Shown piece after piece: positions 11,075 to 18,660 of a DNA stretch of 64,000 nt. Below the pieces are notes generated by a model. That model was not told where the DNA came from. It ran no database searches and saw only the letters and a list, made by a program, of their open reading frames with translations. The first letter of the stretch is position 1; every line of letters starts with the position of its first letter. The translations under genes were made by a program, and so were the position numbers. The stretch comes from Methyloceanibacter sp. wino2 (lineage in GTDB: Bacteria; Pseudomonadota; Alphaproteobacteria; Rhizobiales; Methyloligellaceae), in assembly GCF_003071365.1 (NCBI RefSeq), contig NZ_CP028960.1:3082501-3146500 (forward strand). Direction: 5' to 3'.

Positions 11075-11917
11075 CTATTTGGCGACGATGAAGGTCGTGC
11101 GGTCGAGCCCGGTATTGCCCGTGCGCGGATTGTGCGCATAGACGGTCACGTCGTAGAGGCCCGGCGCCGTCACCGGCACGCTGCCGGCGAATTGGCTCGC
11201 CTCGCCGCCAAAGGCAAGGTCGATCGGGTCGAGCTTCTCGCCGTTATGGGTGACGAGCGCTTTGACTTCGAGCTCGTCCGCATCCCACAAGCCGCCCGGC
11301 GTGATGGGGCAGCCACACATGAGGCTGACATTGGCGCGCAGATCGATCTTGTCCATCTGTCCGGAAAGCTTCACATGCGCGGGCGGGTCGAGCACGTCCA
11401 CCACGTAGCCCGGCAGCTCGACGCGCCAGCCATCGCCTCCGGTGATGTCTTTTCCCGGCACCACCCATTGGGTGACGGTCACGCGGTTCGCGCTTTGGCG
11501 CTGGGCAAGGGGACCGAACACCTCGACCTCGACCAGGCGCGGCTCCTCGATATCGATGGTGGCGTCGAACTTGGCGGCGCCCTCGCTCGAGAGCGTGGCG
11601 CGGCGTCCGCCGTCCTCATGCATGATGCGGCCGGTATCGCCCGTGCCGCCTTCGGTCACGCCCTCGGCCAGGATCTTGCCGGTGTCGGCGTCGCGCACGA
11701 TGACCCGGGCGCCGCCCATGCTGGAGCCAACGAACTTGGCATCCTTGCTCAGCACGCGAACGGTGATGTCGGTGGGTTCGGCGCTGGCGACGCGCGGCGC
11801 GAACACGATGATGGCAGCCGCGACGGCAAGTCCCAGCCCTGCGAGCAAAAGGACATGCGCAAGGCGAGGGGTCGTGGTGCGTGACAAGGACTTAGGTGAG
11901 GCGTGATGAAGCGACAT
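11075..11917 (-). CDS. Exported protein of unknown function with MCGCP motif
   Basis: A 280-residue protein with an N-terminal membrane/signal segment (HVLLLAGLGLAVAAAIIVFA, then RVASAEPTD), so it is periplasmic or anchored. The mature part looks all-beta, with repeated V-x-V strands. It contains LSLxCGC-like SLMCGCPITPGGLWDADELE near residues 205-224, then a final Ig-like segment (PVTAPGLYDVTVYAHNPRTG). The Cys pair may bind a metal or form a disulfide. The ATG at 11917 has GGGAG 6 bases upstream and replaces a longer frame from 11956. Neighbours on the same strand are fecR-like and hsp20 genes. No function is assigned. Confidence 0.6.
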   Translation of the reverse strand: MSLHHASPKSLSRTTTPRLAHVLLLAGLGLAVAAAIIVFAPRVASAEPTDITVRVLSKDAKFVGSSMGGARVIVRDADTGKILAEGVTEGGTGDTGRIMHEDGGRRATLSSEGAAKFDATIDIEEPRLVEVEVFGPLAQRQSANRVTVTQWVVPGKDITGGDGWRVELPGYVVDVLDPPAHVKLSGQMDKIDLRANVSLMCGCPITPGGLWDADELEVKALVTHNGEKLDPIDLAFGGEASQFAGSVPVTAPGLYDVTVYAHNPRTGNTGLDRTTFIVAK

Positions 11918-12073
11918 CGGAACTCCCGGGAAGGCCGGCTTGGCAGGAAGGGGCAAGCCCGTCCCCTGAAAATGGGGACGGACGGGGAGACCTTAAAGGG
12001 TCCGCATGACACGCAGACATGACACGCGGATACTTGGCCAAGAGAGCGAGCTTCGCGGCTCGCGGAGCGCTGC

Positions 12074-13006
12074 TTAGCAGTTGGCGCAGGTGTACCCGGG
12101 AGAAGTATAGAGCGGTGTCTGCGTCACGCTCGGCGGTTTGGGCACGCGTACGGGAGGGGTGAGGGGCGTGTGCGGCCGATGGACGTCAGGCACGCGCACC
12201 TTCGGCTCCGGCACGCGGTGCAGCTTGATCGGGCGGGCGTCGTAGAACTGGTCGCGGATGAACGGCTTATCCGGGAAACGGCCGGTCGGCTGGATGCCGT
12301 AATAGAACGGCCATGGGTTCCCCTTCGTCTTGTAGACCTTGGCGGCGGTGCCGCCGGAGATCGCGGCCAGGATGAGATTGGTATCCGTCTGGGTGGTGCG
12401 CCGGATGATGGGCGGGCCCGAATTGCCGATCGCGAACAAATTGCCGCTGTGCTTGATGGTATAGCGGCGTCCTTTGCGGTTCAGCGCCAGATAGTCGCCG
12501 AAGACGAAGGCGAACACCGCCTGGTTGGAGCTGTTCACGATGCCCTGGAAGATGCCGCCGCGCACGGTCAGCTCGCCGGCGGGTGTCTTGACCTTCACGG
12601 CGGGCTCCTGCTTCGAGAGCTTCCCGCCGACAAAGCGCAGGGCGCCCTTCGAGAGCGTGGCGGTCATCTCGCCCGTGCCCTTGTGCGGGTTGTAGACGAA
12701 CTTGTCGATGAGGAGGCTCGAGCGGGGGCCGACGGTGAAAGTGGAGCCGTCGACCAGGAGCACCTGCACGACGCCGGAGTCCGACGTGGTGATCCGTTCG
12801 TTGTAGAAAACCGACTTGCCGATCTTGAGGGTTCGCGTGCCCGCGCCGGGCGGCGTACTGGTGGCTTTCGGGGTGACGGCGGAAGCGACGCCGACGCGAT
12901 CGGCGGCTTCTGCGGTGGCGTCCATACCGGATAGGGGCAGGACCGAGAGAACCGAGCTTGCGACAATCGCGGTCGCCCTCGGTGTGAGGCTAATCGAAGC
13001 GAGCAT
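12074..13006 (-). CDS. Secreted FecR-domain protein with proline-rich tail
   Basis: A 310-residue protein: signal peptide cut near residue 35 (MDATAEAADRVGVA), then a FecR domain of about residues 55-165 with FYNERITTSDSGVVQVLLVD and FTVGPRSSLLIDKFVYNP. A conserved-looking FGDYLALNRKGRRYTIKHSG segment follows. The C-terminal tail (about 235-310) is rich in Pro, Val and Arg and ends CANC. FecR domains are best known as periplasmic sensors on anti-sigma factors. Here there is no anti-sigma N-terminus and no neighbouring sigma factor or TonB receptor. It shares the mature N-terminal motif VGVAxAVxP with the two larger paralogues upstream but has no barrel domain. Confidence 0.8.
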   Translation of the reverse strand: MLASISLTPRATAIVASSVLSVLPLSGMDATAEAADRVGVASAVTPKATSTPPGAGTRTLKIGKSVFYNERITTSDSGVVQVLLVDGSTFTVGPRSSLLIDKFVYNPHKGTGEMTATLSKGALRFVGGKLSKQEPAVKVKTPAGELTVRGGIFQGIVNSSNQAVFAFVFGDYLALNRKGRRYTIKHSGNLFAIGNSGPPIIRRTTQTDTNLILAAISGGTAAKVYKTKGNPWPFYYGIQPTGRFPDKPFIRDQFYDARPIKLHRVPEPKVRVPDVHRPHTPLTPPVRVPKPPSVTQTPLYTSPGYTCANC

Positions 13007-13265: not shown

Positions 13266-15137
13266 CTACCGCTGAGCGCCCGCGTAGATGCCGTTGGCCC
13301 GCCATCTGTCGTTCGCCTGACGGACATCGAAGTTTCCGATGACGCCCTTGGGTGTCTTGTCTATCCCCTGGAATCCGACGAATGAGCCGTTCGCAGTGCC
13401 GGCAATCGATTTGGCAAGATTGTTCCGATTGACGTGGCCGACGATACCGGTGAAGCCGGAAGTCCCTGGCGCATTCACCAGCTTGCCGCCGAAGTTGCGG
13501 TTATCGAAGTTTTTGACTGAGAAGTCACCACTGCGTTTAGCGAACTGCCAGTCAAGGGTCATGTCCCCGGTAGCGATGTACTGGTTCCAAGTCCCTTTCT
13601 TGAGTTTGGCGACCGTGCCAACTGCGCTGCCTTCGTAAGATGCGCTTGCTTGGAGCTGCTGGAGCTTATCGATATTCGCTTCGGGAACGACATTCCCCGC
13701 GACCCACCAACCACCCATCTTGTCCACATTGGAGCCATAGGTGACGTCAGACGCCCAGGTGCCGAACTTTATGAATTCGCACTCATTGCAGAGGACCGAA
13801 CCTGGAATGCTGATCAGGTTGCCGGAGTGGGAGACTTCGGAGAAGTTCTCAACATTTTGGGACTGTTCGAAGTGTCCCTGCCAAGGCCATCGGCCTGTTC
13901 GCACCCACTCCTCATTCCATGTCTTCCTAACGACGTTTGACGTTCCGTCGTTTCCGAACGCCAGGAACGTATTGTCATCAATGTAGGCTTCTGCCTGTCC
14001 GGCGAAGCCCAGATTGAATGTGGTCGTCTGTCTCGGGACTGGCTCCCAGTTAACAATTGTGAGGCCCCGGTGGTCGTTGACCTGAATTGCCCCGGTAACC
14101 GTGTTTGCCTTGGGGTCAAGCTTCACGTTTGCAGTACCATCGTAGAGAGAGATTGGCTCTCCACTTCCGTTGTCTCCTGTTTGTAGAAAGCCGGACGCAT
14201 GGCCGTTAAACGTTCCTCCGGTCTTGACCACTGTCGGCGTCTCGGTGTTGTCGATGGCCGGCGGCGGGGTGATGACCTTCGGCATAGGCACTGGATCAGT
14301 CTTCAACTGCTCCAGCCGAATGAGCTGTTTGGTGATCTCCGTCTGGATCTGTGTGGTGGTGACATTGCTTATCGTGTCACTCGCCGCGTTCGCGACGTTG
14401 TCCGCCTGCTGGCCGGATTGCTGCGCGGTGCTGTTGGGATTCTGCGACCCGCTATCGCCGCCGCCGCCCGATGAGGACGACGTGGTCGTGGCCGGGCTCG
14501 AAAGCGCCTGCATGAAGACGTTGGTATCCTCGGCCGTGGTGGGGCGGACGTTGCCGGTGCCGCTCGACATATCGAGCGTATACCCGGGCTGATAGACCGT
14601 TTGCGTTCGCCCGTTCCGGCCTTGCATCGACATCGAGTGGCCGTAGAGGAAGGAATAGATCTTCTTCTGCGTGTTGCCCTGGAACATGCCGCCGCGAATG
14701 GCGAGCGCGCCCGACGGCGTGTTCACCTTCACGCCGCCCGCGTTCTTCGACAGCTTGCCGCCGATGAAGCGCATGGAACCCTTGGAGAAGGTGGCGACCA
14801 GTTCGCCCGTCTTCTTGTTCGGGTCGTAGACGAACTTGTCGATGACGAGGTTGGAGTTGGGGCCGACCGTGAAGGTGGAGCCGTCCACCAGCAGCACCTG
14901 CACGAGCCCTTGCGCCGTGGTCTCGATGCGCTCGTTGTAGAAGATCGACTTGCCGATATTCAGCTGCTTGTTGGGCACGCCGGAGAGCGACGAAAAGGCG
15001 TCCGGATTGACGGCCGCTGCGACGCCGACCTTGGCGGCGTAGGCGGGGGCGGACAGGGCAAGGCCAACGCCCGCGCTACAGAGCAGCGCGATCGCCACGG
15101 CGCCGCGCGGCAGCGTCAAGTGACCGTTTCTGACCAT
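13266..15137 (-). CDS. FecR domain plus C-terminal TbpB/hemophilin-like barrel, secreted
   Basis: A 623-residue protein: signal peptide to about residue 34 (ending APAYA); FecR domain about 50-165 (FYNERIETTAQGLVQVLLVD, VYDPNKKTGE); Ser/Gly/Gln-rich linker about 215-260; short Pro-rich stretch near 283-294; and a beta-rich C-terminal domain from about 305. The last domain has CNEC (450-453) followed by FIKFGTW, then GGWWVAGN, a strand pair SYEGSAVGTV, and the ending NGSFVGFQG...GVIGNFDV...WRANGIYAGAQR. That ending pattern resembles the handle/barrel halves of TbpB and other Slam-exported proteins. No lipobox is present, so it is not a lipoprotein. It is the last gene after a Slam-like gene and a paralogue. 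The cargo function (metal, haem or adhesion) is unknown. Confidence 0.7.
   Translation of the reverse strand: MVRNGHLTLPRGAVAIALLCSAGVGLALSAPAYAAKVGVAAAVNPDAFSSLSGVPNKQLNIGKSIFYNERIETTAQGLVQVLLVDGSTFTVGPNSNLVIDKFVYDPNKKTGELVATFSKGSMRFIGGKLSKNAGGVKVNTPSGALAIRGGMFQGNTQKKIYSFLYGHSMSMQGRNGRTQTVYQPGYTLDMSSGTGNVRPTTAEDTNVFMQALSSPATTTSSSSGGGGDSGSQNPNSTAQQSGQQADNVANAASDTISNVTTTQIQTEITKQLIRLEQLKTDPVPMPKVITPPPAIDNTETPTVVKTGGTFNGHASGFLQTGDNGSGEPISLYDGTANVKLDPKANTVTGAIQVNDHRGLTIVNWEPVPRQTTTFNLGFAGQAEAYIDDNTFLAFGNDGTSNVVRKTWNEEWVRTGRWPWQGHFEQSQNVENFSEVSHSGNLISIPGSVLCNECEFIKFGTWASDVTYGSNVDKMGGWWVAGNVVPEANIDKLQQLQASASYEGSAVGTVAKLKKGTWNQYIATGDMTLDWQFAKRSGDFSVKNFDNRNFGGKLVNAPGTSGFTGIVGHVNRNNLAKSIAGTANGSFVGFQGIDKTPKGVIGNFDVRQANDRWRANGIYAGAQR
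14754..14957. repeat. Diverged direct repeat, FecR-coding copy 1
   Basis: This 204-base segment lies inside the FecR-domain region of the 623-residue gene. It aligns without gaps to 16588-16791 at roughly 80 percent identity by eye. The match covers the codons for NERI through FIGGK and shows that the two genes arose by duplication. Confidence 0.75.
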
Positions 15138-15276
15138 CCCTCAAGCCTCTTCTACAAGCCGTAGAGAAGAGAAATTCCGATTATTGATATAGCACAGTTT
15201 TGCCGGGTTTCATTGTCCAATCGCGCCAATAGAGCGGATCGGCGACAAGATACGGAAGGACTTTAGCTGAAACGAT

Positions 15277-16932
15277 CTAACGCTTTGCAGCAGCACCAAA
15301 AATACCGGTTGCACGGTAGTAGTTGTTCATGTCTTTGACGCCCCAGTTGCCAATGACGCCGGCAGCCGGGCGCCGTCCGTCGGTCACGAAGGAGCCGAAG
15401 GCGCCGCCCGAAACGGGAATCTGTCCTGCCATGCCGCTGATGTCTCCGGAGAAGCGATTCACGCTCCCCGGTGTGGACATCGTGCCGGAGACGTTCAGCG
15501 TCGGCGGGGTGTAATTCGGCAAGGGCGACGAAATGGCTTTGAAGTCGGAGATCGAGAGCTGGCCCGAGCGTTTGGCGAAGCTCCAGCTCATGTCGAGATC
15601 GCCGCGGCCTTCGACCTGCGCGCCGTCCAGATTGTAGTCGAGGATCGTGCCCCGGGCGGTTCCGGAATAGGTCGCGGTACCCGTCGTCGGCAGGTCCTTG
15701 AACGCGGTGACTGCGCCGCCAACCCACCAGCCATTGTTGATGTCTTCCTGCATGGCGTAGGGGTCGTTCGGGTAAGAGCTGTATTTGTAGTCTGCGTTGA
15801 AGGTGCCCCATTCGATGAAGTTGCAGCCGGGACACATCACTTGCGTTCGCCGTTCGGCCCCACCGGTCGGGTCGGTCACGTAAAGCGGATTGCCGCTGGA
15901 GTCGATGAGTTGCAGGCTCGACAGTGTCCAGTTGTTGTTGGAGACCGGGCTGAACTTGAAGATACCGTGGCTTGGTCCGAATTGTTGCGAGGACCCCTCG
16001 ACGTTGCGCAGCGTCAGGGTGATGACGTCGGAGTTCTCATTGTAATCGAAGTCGGTCGAGTACTTGCTCCCGACGGTGGTGTAATTGCCGTAGTCGTCGT
16101 GCGCGATGCCGCTCCCATAGCCACCGATCGTGAAGTCGATGCTCGTCTCCTCGAGCTGCTCGACAGTCGTCTGCTGCAACGCGAGCAGCTGCTGCAGGAT
16201 TTCGTCGCTGATCCGCGTGCCGGTGGCGTCGATGATCATCTGCTGGAAGTCTTGCGGCAGGATCACGAAGTTCTGCGGCGGGGGCTGGTTGTCCGTGCCG
16301 GTGCCGGTGGTGCTTACCGTACTGTTGGTCAGGCTGGCCAGGACCGTCTGGATGTCGGCCGCGGTCGTCGGCCGGATCGTCGGCACGCCGCTGCTGAGGT
16401 CGAGCGTGTAGCCGGGCTGGTAGACCGTGTAGACCTTCCCGCTCTTGCTCTTGAACACCATCTCGTTGCCGAAGAGGAACGAGAAGATGGTGCCCCGCGA
16501 GGTAATCGCGCCCTGGGCCATGCCGCCGCGGATGGCGAGGCTGCCATCCGGCGTGTTGACGGTCACGCCGCCGGGGTTCTTCGAGATCTTGCCGCCGATG
16601 AAACGCATCGAGCCCTTCGAGAAGGACGTGACGATCTCGCCGGTCTTCTTGTTGGGGTCGTAGACGAACTTGTCGATGACGACGTTGGAGTTCTTGCCGA
16701 CGGTGAAGGTAGAGCCGTCCACGAGCAGAACCTGAACCACGCCTTTGGCGTCGGTGCTGATCCTCTCGTTGTAGAAGATCGATTTGCCGATGCGGATTTC
16801 CTTGCCGCCGGAAAAAGCGTCCGGATTGACCGCGGCCGCCACGCCAACCTTGTTCGCGGCGGCGTCCGTTGGCGCACCGAGAGCAGCCGCGCCGAGTGCG
16901 ATGAACGCTACGACTGCGCGTACGGCACCCAC
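15277..16932 (-). CDS. FecR domain plus C-terminal TbpB/hemophilin-like barrel, secreted (paralogue)
   Basis: A 551-residue paralogue of the following gene. It has a signal peptide (about 1-26), a FecR domain about 45-155 (FYNERISTDAKGVVQVLLVD, VYDPNKKTGE), a linker with a QQLLALQQTTVEQLEE helix (about 247-262), and a C-terminal beta domain from about 270. The C-terminal part repeats the partner's landmarks in order: CPGC (367-370) then NFIEWGTF, GWWVGGAV, TYSGTARGT, GGAFGSFVTDG, GVIGNWGVKD and YYRATGIFGAAAKR. The GTG start at 16932 follows the stop of the Slam-like gene by one base, with AGAGG about 9 bases before it, so the two are translationally coupled. There is no lipobox. This gene and its paralogue are the likely cargo of that outer-membrane protein. 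Confidence 0.7.
   Translation of the reverse strand: MGAVRAVVAFIALGAAALGAPTDAAANKVGVAAAVNPDAFSGGKEIRIGKSIFYNERISTDAKGVVQVLLVDGSTFTVGKNSNVVIDKFVYDPNKKTGEIVTSFSKGSMRFIGGKISKNPGGVTVNTPDGSLAIRGGMAQGAITSRGTIFSFLFGNEMVFKSKSGKVYTVYQPGYTLDLSSGVPTIRPTTAADIQTVLASLTNSTVSTTGTGTDNQPPPQNFVILPQDFQQMIIDATGTRISDEILQQLLALQQTTVEQLEETSIDFTIGGYGSGIAHDDYGNYTTVGSKYSTDFDYNENSDVITLTLRNVEGSSQQFGPSHGIFKFSPVSNNNWTLSSLQLIDSSGNPLYVTDPTGGAERRTQVMCPGCNFIEWGTFNADYKYSSYPNDPYAMQEDINNGWWVGGAVTAFKDLPTTGTATYSGTARGTILDYNLDGAQVEGRGDLDMSWSFAKRSGQLSISDFKAISSPLPNYTPPTLNVSGTMSTPGSVNRFSGDISGMAGQIPVSGGAFGSFVTDGRRPAAGVIGNWGVKDMNNYYRATGIFGAAAKR
16588..16791. repeat. Diverged direct repeat, FecR-coding copy 2
   Basis: Partner of 14754-14957, with a constant offset of 1834 bases and no gaps. 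It is within the FecR domain of the 551-residue gene. Differences are mostly at third codon positions, as expected for an old duplication kept under selection. Confidence 0.75.
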
Positions 16933-16933
16933 G

Positions 16934-18274
16934 CTAGAACCTCTTCTGGATGCCGAGCATCGTCGTCAGGTCGTCGAATGTCCGCAGGTCGTAATTGGAC
17001 TGCTGGTCGCGATACTCGACTTGCGGCACGAGCGCCCAGGTCTCCGCGACGGGCACCACGATCGCCGTCCGCGCCCACCACGTATCGTCCCGCTCGGACT
17101 CGGTGGGGTCGATCGTCGGATCGGGATCGTCGTAGTCGCGCCGGATGATGCCCGCGCCCAGTTGCCAGGTGAGGGGGTAGTCGGCCCGCCACAGCGGGTT
17201 CTCGAAGGTGTAGGCGAACCCGGCCGAGAACGCGACTTCCGTATTGGCGTAGAACTCGGCGTCGGCCGCCTCCCGTTGCGCGTAAACCTGGGTTGTCAGA
17301 ACGAGACCGGGCGTCAAGTAGTAGGTGTAGTTCACCCCGATCCGGGTCTGAAAGCCGGTGCGCAGCGAATTCGTGGGCAGTTCGCTGTTGTCCTGGAAGT
17401 CGCGGTAGCGCGTTTCGAGGCGGGCATCGAGCACGCTCTGCGTCGCCGCGAAGCTCAACAGCCGGACGCCTGCGCCCGGTGCGTAGAAATACGAGTCGTA
17501 GCCGAGATAGGACAGGTCGCCGATCGCGTAGAGAAACAGGCGGGTCTGGTCCCAGCCGATGCGCTTCATGTTGAAGCTCGGGCCGAGGGTGAACTCGAAG
17601 AAATCGAGATCGATGTCGGAGAGTTCGTCGTCGAAGTAGACGGTCGAATAGGCCAGGAAGTCGAACTCGATCCGGTCGCCCTGGTTCTTCAGATCGTAGG
17701 AGTAATGCAGCGTCCCGATGTTCAACCAGCTCCAGCCGGGGCGTCCAACGGACTGGTCGCCCAGGGTGAAGTCGATACCGTTCAAGGTCACCGTGTTGGT
17801 GCCCGGGCCGAAGTTGGCGTTGCTCTCCCAGCGGATGGCACTGAAGATCGACGCGGAGAAGGGCGGCGGGTCCGCGGCGAGGGCGAGCTGCTGAATATAG
17901 AGCCGAACCTGGTCGGCGATCTCATTCGGCACGCTCGGATTGAGGAGCACCTGTTCGAAGTAGCTGCGGGCGACCTCATAGGCGCCGAGCTTGTAGTAGA
18001 GCACGCCGAGTTCGAACTGGAGGCGGGGCGTGTTGGGCGCGTAGATGAGCATGCGCTCGAGGGCGGAAATCGCGCCTTCATAGTCGCCGGCATCGGACGA
18101 GGCTTGTGCGTATTCGAATGCGAGATCGAGATCGCTCGGATTGGCGATCATGCGCTGAAGCATAGCCTCGCGCTGCGGTTCGGAGACCCCAGCGGCGGAC
18201 ACGATCCCGGGGACACCCAGGACCAGACACACCGCCGCCGCAGCGGTTGTCGCCAACTTCGCCCACGAACCCAT
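16934..18274 (-). CDS. Slam-like outer-membrane protein: TPR domain plus beta-barrel
   Basis: A 446-residue protein: signal peptide (ATTAAAAVCLVLGVPGIVSA); TPR-like helices about 30-135 (LAFEYAQASSDAGDYEGAIS, LGVLYYKLGAYEVARSYFEQ); then about 300 residues of alternating aromatic/polar strands ending TTMLGIQKRF, a typical outer-membrane barrel C-terminus with final Phe. An N-terminal TPR followed by a barrel of this size is the plan of Slam (DUF560), which moves TbpB-like proteins across the outer membrane. The start at 18274 gives a proper signal peptide; the frame extends to 18343. It is the first gene of a unit with two FecR-barrel genes, the second starting one base after its stop. An alternative is a general TPR-porin of unknown cargo. 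Confidence 0.65.
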   Translation of the reverse strand: MGSWAKLATTAAAAVCLVLGVPGIVSAAGVSEPQREAMLQRMIANPSDLDLAFEYAQASSDAGDYEGAISALERMLIYAPNTPRLQFELGVLYYKLGAYEVARSYFEQVLLNPSVPNEIADQVRLYIQQLALAADPPPFSASIFSAIRWESNANFGPGTNTVTLNGIDFTLGDQSVGRPGWSWLNIGTLHYSYDLKNQGDRIEFDFLAYSTVYFDDELSDIDLDFFEFTLGPSFNMKRIGWDQTRLFLYAIGDLSYLGYDSYFYAPGAGVRLLSFAATQSVLDARLETRYRDFQDNSELPTNSLRTGFQTRIGVNYTYYLTPGLVLTTQVYAQREAADAEFYANTEVAFSAGFAYTFENPLWRADYPLTWQLGAGIIRRDYDDPDPTIDPTESERDDTWWARTAIVVPVAETWALVPQVEYRDQQSNYDLRTFDDLTTMLGIQKRF

Positions 18275-18660
18275 TCGTACGTCCGTTCGGTTGTTACTTT
18301 GGTGAGATGTCAGTCTTTGCCGACAACAGCACCCGCCCATCACCCCGGACGTTAGCCAGTTAACCTTTGCGCGACAAGGCTTGCAGGGTGTTTCCCGAGT
18401 GATTTCAAAGACTCTGTGGCCGTTGGGGCACGGGATTGTCTTGCTATGGTTAACAATCTGATGCTGTCAGCCTGACCGCGCTATAATGGCCTGATTCTGA
18501 GGCACATTTTATGCACCGGAGAGTCTTCCACCGGAGCGTCTGCAAATAGGGAACGCATTTATTCTTTGATAACCGAGTTGGGCTCACATTGAACGTGCGC
18601 CGGAGGAGTTCACTTTGTTCTGCGTTCGTAGCTCTTCCGGCGCGGCTTCCTTGAGCCCTT
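18275..18660. other. Divergent intergenic region, promoter candidate
   Basis: This region of 386 bases separates the minus-strand Slam-like gene from plus-strand rlpA. It is clearly more AT-rich than its flanks. A perfect TATAAT at 18482-18487 reads toward rlpA, but the -35 position (about 18459-18464, TGATGC) is a poor match. No open frame longer than a dozen codons looks coding. Confidence 0.4.

Follow-up and report, generated by a model that had tools for sequence, protein, structure and literature searches.

A FecR-linked, Slam-like secretion locus in Methyloceanibacter as a candidate variant of the type 11 secretion system

What could a FecR domain, familiar from anti-sigma regulators, be doing when it is fused to the cargo of a Slam-like outer-membrane channel? 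This question is raised by a locus of Methyloceanibacter sp. wino2 that lies in a stretch of 64,000 nucleotides (contig NZ_CP028960.1, positions 3,082,501 to 3,146,500), called here the window. Three minus-strand open reading frames (ORFs), re-found at the places where a first-pass annotation had put them, encode a channel of Slam layout (SlamL) and then two secreted proteins (cargo A and cargo B), each with a FecR domain and a C-terminal beta domain. The annotation had described a three-gene unit; this gene order is real and recurs in relatives, while a third FecR protein directly downstream, FecR-short, had been missed. We consider, with a probability of about 60%, that the locus is a FecR-type variant of the type 11 secretion system (T11SS). 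This reading is built on the computed homologies of SlamL, of the C-terminal domains (C-domains) and of the FecR domains, on the conserved pairing of their genes and on the lack of a lipobox in the cargo.

Family membership of the channel

The T11SS channels (Slam, DUF560, Pfam family SlipAM, PF04575) have in common with the window locus a TPR N-terminal domain, a 14-strand barrel and an adjoining cargo with a TbpB_B_D or lipoprotein-C type domain. In the available part of PMC5449769, Slam1 is predicted to have 14 barrel strands, and an N-terminal TPR domain followed by a barrel is what defines a Slam. The AlphaFold2 model of SlamL (78-row alignment) had a pLDDT of 90.6 and a pTM of 0.74 and contained TPR helices followed by 14 long strands, a number counted from the DSSP string of the model and not from coordinates.

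Several results weigh against calling this protein a Slam. In a single-sequence scan it was above the Pfam cut-offs for TPR repeats only; its barrel matched PF04575 at E 0.0022 and 18.0 bits, under the 22-bit cut-off, and a PF04575 search of this genome gave no match. The Foldseek matches were led by BcsC, PelBC and porins, with OmpG giving the top target TM-score (0.65) among the matches listed, and no Slam structure was found among the 50 PDB matches listed, so that the fold alone cannot separate SlamL from BcsC, PelBC and porins. The whole-family SlamL profile also scored 87.2% with BcsC, and the alphaproteobacterial SlipAM set used for comparison includes L177, which stands beside SlamL in the tree described below. 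One may therefore ask whether SlamL is another TPR-barrel exporter, of polysaccharide or porin type, its pairing with FecR proteins meaning something else, as BcsC and PelBC are its top structural matches and some of its relatives match other barrel families. These relatives are few, with no more than 6 of 78 for any one family, whereas single-sequence matches to PF04575 at E <= 0.01 were obtained for 14 of the 78 (best 6.6e-9) and matches to TPR_Slam for 8. The PF04575 search proposed by the first-pass annotation thus gave a divided answer, negative for the window protein and positive for part of its family.

Because no Slam structure was listed, profiles were compared instead, after removal of the wrongly picked ORFs L165, L178 and L180. 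The SlamL barrel scored 99.4% with strong-scoring SlipAM (9 rows), 100.0% with alphaproteobacterial SlipAM (15 rows) and 99.9% with SlipAM from elsewhere in the phylum (14 rows), in alignments of 309-321 columns. The 87.2% with BcsC (9 rows) extended over 170 columns, and PgaA (6 rows) reached 7.4%. When the profile was made from the first 25 rows of the SlamL alignment A3, which are the best scorers with the first SlamL profile, the scores with the three SlipAM sets were 97.2, 99.7 and 99.4%, against 4.2% for BcsC and 0.5% for PgaA. As controls, the SlipAM sets scored 100% with each other, 8.7-23.0% with BcsC and 4.4-85.2% with PgaA. Among the three sets the strong-scoring one is the independent one, since the alphaproteobacterial set holds the SlamL kin L177. 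A tree was built from 38 SlipAM rows and 44 of the 78 SlamL rows, 82 in all, and has only a midpoint root. SlamL makes up one side of a branch (99/97) and is separated from the strong-scoring SlipAM; L177, which itself adjoins a FecR-cargo gene, was placed next to the SlamL branch (100/99).

Profile-profile comparison places SlamL nearer to SlipAM than to either BcsC or PgaA, in agreement with the barrel family named in the first-pass annotation. Its placement as a diverged lineage sister to the outer-membrane channels of the Slam/DUF560 family is well supported at the level of sequence profiles, and it differs from them in forming a separate clade, in the sub-threshold Pfam score of the window member and in having no TonB receptor nearby. 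That SlamL is an exporter of another type is highly improbable, considering the profile scores, the 14 strands of the model and the Slam-cargo domains encoded next door. By analogy with Slam, SlamL would move its cargo across the outer membrane.

Cargo domains and their pairing with SlamL

The C-domains of cargo A and cargo B share an ordered set of landmarks readable in both proteins (CxxC-xFIx[FW]GT, GWWV, GT, GSF, GVIGN and [YW]xAxGI), as the annotation had noticed, and its suggestion that they resemble cargo of the TbpB/hemophilin type was borne out. The model of cargo A (64-row alignment; pLDDT 83.9, pTM 0.57) comprises a FecR domain, a linker and a handle plus barrel domain. Its Foldseek matches, listed without the part of the model covered by each, included TbpB (E 9.5e-8; target TM-score 0.53 for the TbpB C-lobe), the NHBA C-domain (target TM-score 0.74) and the hemophilin HphA (2.6e-4); the global TM-score with TbpB is low because whole two-lobe chains were compared. 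The structural check therefore supports the proposed cargo type, with matches to TbpB, NHBA and HphA, while leaving the channel without a listed Slam match.

Sequence searches pointed in the same direction at the level of the family. A profile of 61 C-domains found fHbp (8.7e-7) and NHBA (8e-6) among PDB sequences. Taken singly at E <= 0.1, 51 of the 61 matched NF041636, the "Slam-dependent surface lipoprotein" model (best 6.2e-16), 46 matched FHBP_C and 23 matched TbpB_B_D. Alone, the cargo A of the window stayed sub-threshold (FHBP_C 0.0069, NF041636 0.00075) and gave only weak matches in a single-protein phmmer search of the PDB, and cargo B had no match of the FHBP_C, TbpB_B_D or NF041636 type. 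We conclude that homology of these C-domains to the Slam-cargo domains of TbpB, NHBA, fHbp and HphA is well supported. Three further matches to the cargo domain contain in-frame TAG codons (G125:C38, G227:C24 and G354:C89).

To establish how regularly channel and cargo occur together, 80 loci were collected with SlamL alone, neighbours not being used. A FecR gene lay directly downstream of SlamL on the same strand in 68 of them. In 57 the downstream ORF carried both FecR and the C-domain (56 by script plus L110, taken as paired because the script missed it through an early ORF start), in 6 it had FecR and no C-domain (L061, L102, L122, L129, L131, L133), and in 5 it was cut by a contig end (L092, L095, L111, L128, and L127 with a 38-residue match). 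One locus had no room downstream (L118) and 11 had no adjacent FecR; among these 11, a gene for FecR alone is found about 2 kb upstream in five Stappia-like loci, and L132 has its cargo about 4 kb downstream. As the order recurs in most of 80 loci found without using neighbours, it is more than chance: the arrangement is real and widespread, and the neighbourhood predicted by the first-pass annotation holds in related genomes. In two of the Stappia-like loci, a gene for a 5'-nucleotidase/calcineurin-like phosphoesterase lies between the FecR-only gene and SlamL (L070:6969-8627, L079:7011-8654), and in L061 (10368-13581), from a draft genome, the cargo gene is split over two reading frames.

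We also looked at the pairing from the side of the cargo. Of 45 places listed for the C-domain profile, 20 were taken, selected for strong scores and for not standing beside a PF04575 match, and hence similar to the members of the profile itself. FecR was in the same ORF in 17, the remaining 3 ORFs being cut by a contig end, and SlamL was adjacent in 9, with 6 loci cut or having too little room.

Some loci speak against an obligate link between the channel and the C-domain. In L102, L122, L129, L131 and L133, SlamL is paired with a FecR protein and no C-domain is present in any frame, which is hard to explain if SlamL exports the C-domain only. Neither FecR nor cargo was seen in the available flanks of L103-L105, L124 and L125. 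Moreover, 5 of the 20 cargo-centred loci have room but no SlamL, and unlinked FecR-cargo therefore exist.

The lack of lipidation distinguishes these proteins. No lipobox was seen by eye in cargo A or B, as first claimed, and a lipobox-like string occurs inside the signal peptide in 2 of 64 FecR-cargo rows. For comparison, 60 further SlipAM contexts were taken, the last 20 chosen partly by their place in the tree or by nearby FecR-like matches, and the gene was re-found in 58. Cargo with a lipobox beside these classical SlipAM is likewise picked up by the C-domain profile: seven non-FecR ORFs matched it at E < 1e-4, one of them cut, and a lipobox was present in 5 of the 6 that could be assessed (L246 twice, L248, L250 and L283, L264 being without), against the 2/64 of FecR-cargo. 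In 17 of the 58 contexts a FecR-family ORF adjoins the SlipAM-type gene on the same strand; L268, L271, L273 and L275 score better as SlamL and others (e.g. L284, L321-L323) do not, some of these genes score weakly as SlipAM, which makes their assignment less certain, and several of the 17 lack a recognised cargo domain. Compared with known T11SS cargo, the window type thus lacks a lipobox and carries a FecR domain at its N-terminal side, together with a CxxC or CxC that is nearly invariant. This cysteine pair is present in all 61 C-domains of alignment A5, which omits 3 of the 64 full-length rows; among these three L132 has CxxC and the short L107 and L130 do not. It is also present in 19 of 20 cargo-centred ORFs, L352 being without. 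Full-length cargo ranges from 451 to 1043 aa.

A protein with an SPI-like signal and no lipobox might simply be released, as is hemophilin, the FecR domain leaving the cell with the rest of the protein and acting as a surface or extracellular binding module. The presence of HphA among the structural matches fits with this, as does TbpBBD subcluster 1B, 97.8% of which is of the soluble, hemophilin-type kind (TbpBBDsol) according to the available part of PMC8406197. However, FecR goes unmentioned in the main texts of the T11SS surveys PMC12282271 and PMC8406197 (nor is it mentioned in that of PMC5449769), FecR-like and retention domains act in the periplasm in the systems looked up, as far as the sources were available, and SlamL also pairs with FecR proteins that have no cargo domain. 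We regard a fully soluble cargo as rather unlikely. Within the preferred reading, a FecR-type variant of T11SS, the C-terminal domain is likely exported, by analogy with Slam cargo.

The FecR domain as candidate anchor or relay

In FecR regulators an anti-sigma part in the cytoplasm is combined with an STN-like part. The window proteins share with the FecR/PupR anti-sigma regulators the PF04773 fold, cargo A giving Foldseek matches to the FecR-family PupR (1.1e-5) and BDI_1681; they differ in having no FecI or FecA partner nearby and in the added C-terminal cargo domain. A FecR next to a Slam is already in print. In the available part of PMC11233812, the Lysobacter cluster orf4990-orf4994 encodes an RpoE-family sigma factor, a FecR regulator, a TonB transporter, a TbpB-like Slam-dependent lipoprotein and a Slam. 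FecR, TbpB-like cargo and Slam are thus together in one cluster as in the window; there FecR is a separate regulator and the cargo a lipoprotein, whereas the window has FecR as part of the cargo protein itself and lacks a nearby sigma factor and TonB transporter. No description of the FecR-cargo fusion was found in the main texts of the T11SS/DUF560 papers searched. The arrangement called unfamiliar by the first-pass annotation is therefore undescribed, as far as the literature was searched, in respect of the fusion only.

A second likeness is with adhesins. Each of the three FecR proteins in the window matches the LapA retention model NF033682 below its cut-off. A profile of 51 FecR domains had a sole match at E <= 1 among 177,635 PDB sequences, 5ix9 ("Antifreeze protein", 1.6e-6), which we take for a portion of the ice adhesin from Marinomonas; the stretch matched in it resembles L297 and L298, both above the retention-module cut-off. 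Compared with 16 retention modules, the FecR profile scored 97.0% over 72 columns, one reversed control giving 0.1%. In the available parts of PMC6890996 and PMC13090378, retention modules are periplasmic and hold adhesins in their outer-membrane channel. LapA-type adhesins, exported by type 1 secretion systems, likewise have a related N-terminal beta domain that is periplasmic while the rest is outside; they differ in the TolC-like LapE channel, in their large size and in their LapG sites, and the likeness is confined to 72 columns and sub-threshold for single proteins.

These adhesin matches must be weighed against several observations. The NF033682 scores of 17.3-20.6 bits are far under the 50-bit cut-off, the part shared with retention modules is only those 72 columns, the adhesin chain is absent among the 50 Foldseek matches listed for cargo A, whose FecR part matches PupR, and the linkers show no excess of LapG-type sites (4/64, shuffled mean 6.85). 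Release of the cargo under LapG control was set aside on this motif count. A single gene of the LapG family (Peptidase_C93) is found elsewhere in the genome.

From these likenesses a mechanism can be proposed. Cargo A and B would leave the cytoplasm by Sec export without lipidation, and the C-terminal TbpB/fHbp-like domain would act as export signal and passage domain, reaching the cell surface via SlamL. The FecR domain would occupy the place of the lipid anchor of classical Slam cargo: by folding in the periplasm it would resist passage and tether the protein in or at the outer membrane, as a LapA-type retention module. An early-folding N-terminal domain could stall passage because Slam1 translocation requires unfolded TbpB (PMC9090332, available part). 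Where CHASE2 cyclases are encoded, the periplasmic FecR could report to them at the inner membrane. We tentatively infer that FecR stays periplasmic and retains or signals; that it is the anchor of the cargo, a view taken from sequence likeness and analogy with adhesins, is possible at somewhat less than even odds. The first-pass annotation had instead seen FecR as a surface or peptidoglycan-facing module and not a regulator. No evidence of peptidoglycan binding by the FecR domain was found, and a signalling role is possible in relatives because a CHASE2-cyclase ORF stands by the pair in 32 of the 80 loci.

In 26 of these 32 loci no more than about 100 bp lie between the cyclase ORF and the FecR gene, and the cyclase and pair genes often overlap or nearly touch. 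It comes directly after the FecR-cargo gene in L073, L075, L077, L080-L091, L093, L094, L097, L115, L120, L126 and others, mostly Rhizobiaceae. Pfam found both CHASE2 and cyclase domains in the four of the 32 that were tested (L066, L073, L100, L132) and also beside other SlipAM in L261, L284 and L324; the tested neighbours L331:1343-3946 and L261:1910-3895 are not CHASE2, and L078 has a cyclase without CHASE2. The gene also stands beside the FecR-only pairs L102, L129, L131 and L133 and in 6 of the 20 cargo-centred loci.

Could the locus then be a trans-envelope sensor, with SlamL and the TbpB-like domain as surface receptor, FecR as periplasmic relay and a CHASE2 adenylate/guanylate cyclase as output, export merely assembling the receptor? 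The gene neighbourhoods just described argue for it, and there are precedents for parts of it. According to the available part of PMC5192318, Burkholderia FecR proteins (LysM-FecR) are encoded beside CHASE2 histidine kinases, a FecR gene adjoining a CHASE2 sensor as in the relatives' loci; in S. meliloti, CHASE2 cyclases respond via the outer-membrane barrel NsrA (PMC13001267, available part), a comparable layout in which a barrel feeds the cyclases. No Slam-like channel or TbpB-like domain was seen in the available parts of either description, that of PMC5192318 making no mention of Slam. NsrA was set aside as a known counterpart of SlamL because its barrel, at residues 600-1200 in the available text, is unlike SlamL, which also tells against the sensor. 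Moreover, no CHASE2 gene is present in the window, the single CHASE2 match of the genome (G000:C1:2944256) being about 150 kb away; among 101 relatives, 82 have CHASE2, compared with 40 that have any SlamL match; and Rhizobiaceae or unnamed Rhizobiales account for about two thirds of the 32 loci, which are therefore not independent. A sensor of this kind is unlikely on present evidence. A lipid-free T11SS branch in which FecR would hold a TbpB-like receptor in its own channel and signal to a CHASE2 cyclase, Methyloceanibacter using an unlinked cyclase or retention alone, would join secretion and signalling, and this complete version of the FecR-type T11SS is doubtful.

Cysteines recur at the ends of the FecR proteins that have no cargo domain. 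FecR-short has none and ends in CANC, and its downstream orthologues in L034, L035/L054, L037/L056 and L038, from four Methyloceanibacter-group genomes beyond the window, also end in CxxC (CANC or CPNC; L054:13029-13988, L056:16352-17326), while those in L039 and L042/L061 do not. Of the 10 proteins with FecR alone that Stappia-like loci encode upstream of SlamL, 9 end in other cysteine pairs, L101 being the exception. These cysteine ends may partner with the CxxC of the cargo.

Layout of the locus and its meaning

The coordinates of the locus are collected in the table. The 446 aa of SlamL assume a start at 18274, the mechanical ORF starting at 18343. A single base separates the SlamL stop from the GTG start of the cargo A gene, which has AGAGG upstream. 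PF04773 is above its cut-off of 24 bits in all three FecR proteins (33.5, 33.9 and 40.6 bits), and these are the only FecR matches of the genome at E <= 0.001; FecR-short likely belongs to the locus.

Table. Features of the SlamL locus (positions in the window)
Feature	Positions	Strand	Description	Match
SlamL	16934..18274	-	signal sequence, TPR helices (residues 32-133), 14-strand outer-membrane barrel (139-445), terminal F	
Cargo A	15277..16932	-	551 aa; signal peptide, FecR domain, disordered linker with helix, C-terminal TbpB/fHbp-like domain	
Cargo A FecR domain	16363..16779	-	model residues 52-190	PF04773 5.7e-8
Cargo A handle and barrel domain	15286..16134	-	C-terminal, residues 267-549	
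Cargo A CPGC (CxxC)	15823..15834	-	residues 367-370	
Cargo B	13266..15137	-	623 aa; domain order as cargo A	FecR match 14667-14930, C-domain match 13269-14228
FecR-short	12074..13006	-	310 aa; signal peptide, FecR domain, proline-rich tail with CANC end	PF04773 3.6e-10

The ten neighbours scanned include Lon, an Hsp20 protein, a DPBB/SPOR (RlpA-like) protein, a D-Ala-D-Ala carboxypeptidase, thymidylate kinase, a DNA polymerase III delta' type protein and methionyl-tRNA synthetase. As the first-pass annotation had it, no sigma factor or TonB receptor is among them, and the 8 TonB-plug matches of the genome all fall outside the window. Promoter and terminator scans showed no excess. The window SlamL is 91% identical to that of its nearest named relative, Methyloceanibacter. 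Adjoining FecR-short, a 293-aa protein (11075-11956) has a hydrophobic N-terminal stretch, a CGC string and no Pfam match.

In conclusion, the locus is a repeated candidate for a large environmental branch of Alphaproteobacteria in which T11SS cargo is fused to FecR and not lipidated. It suggests how such cargo could be held at the cell surface without a lipid, and it links a secretion channel with FecR and with CHASE2, few of whose signals have been identified. If the link to the cyclases is true, a secretion channel would have been turned into a trans-envelope sensor acting through cyclic nucleotides.

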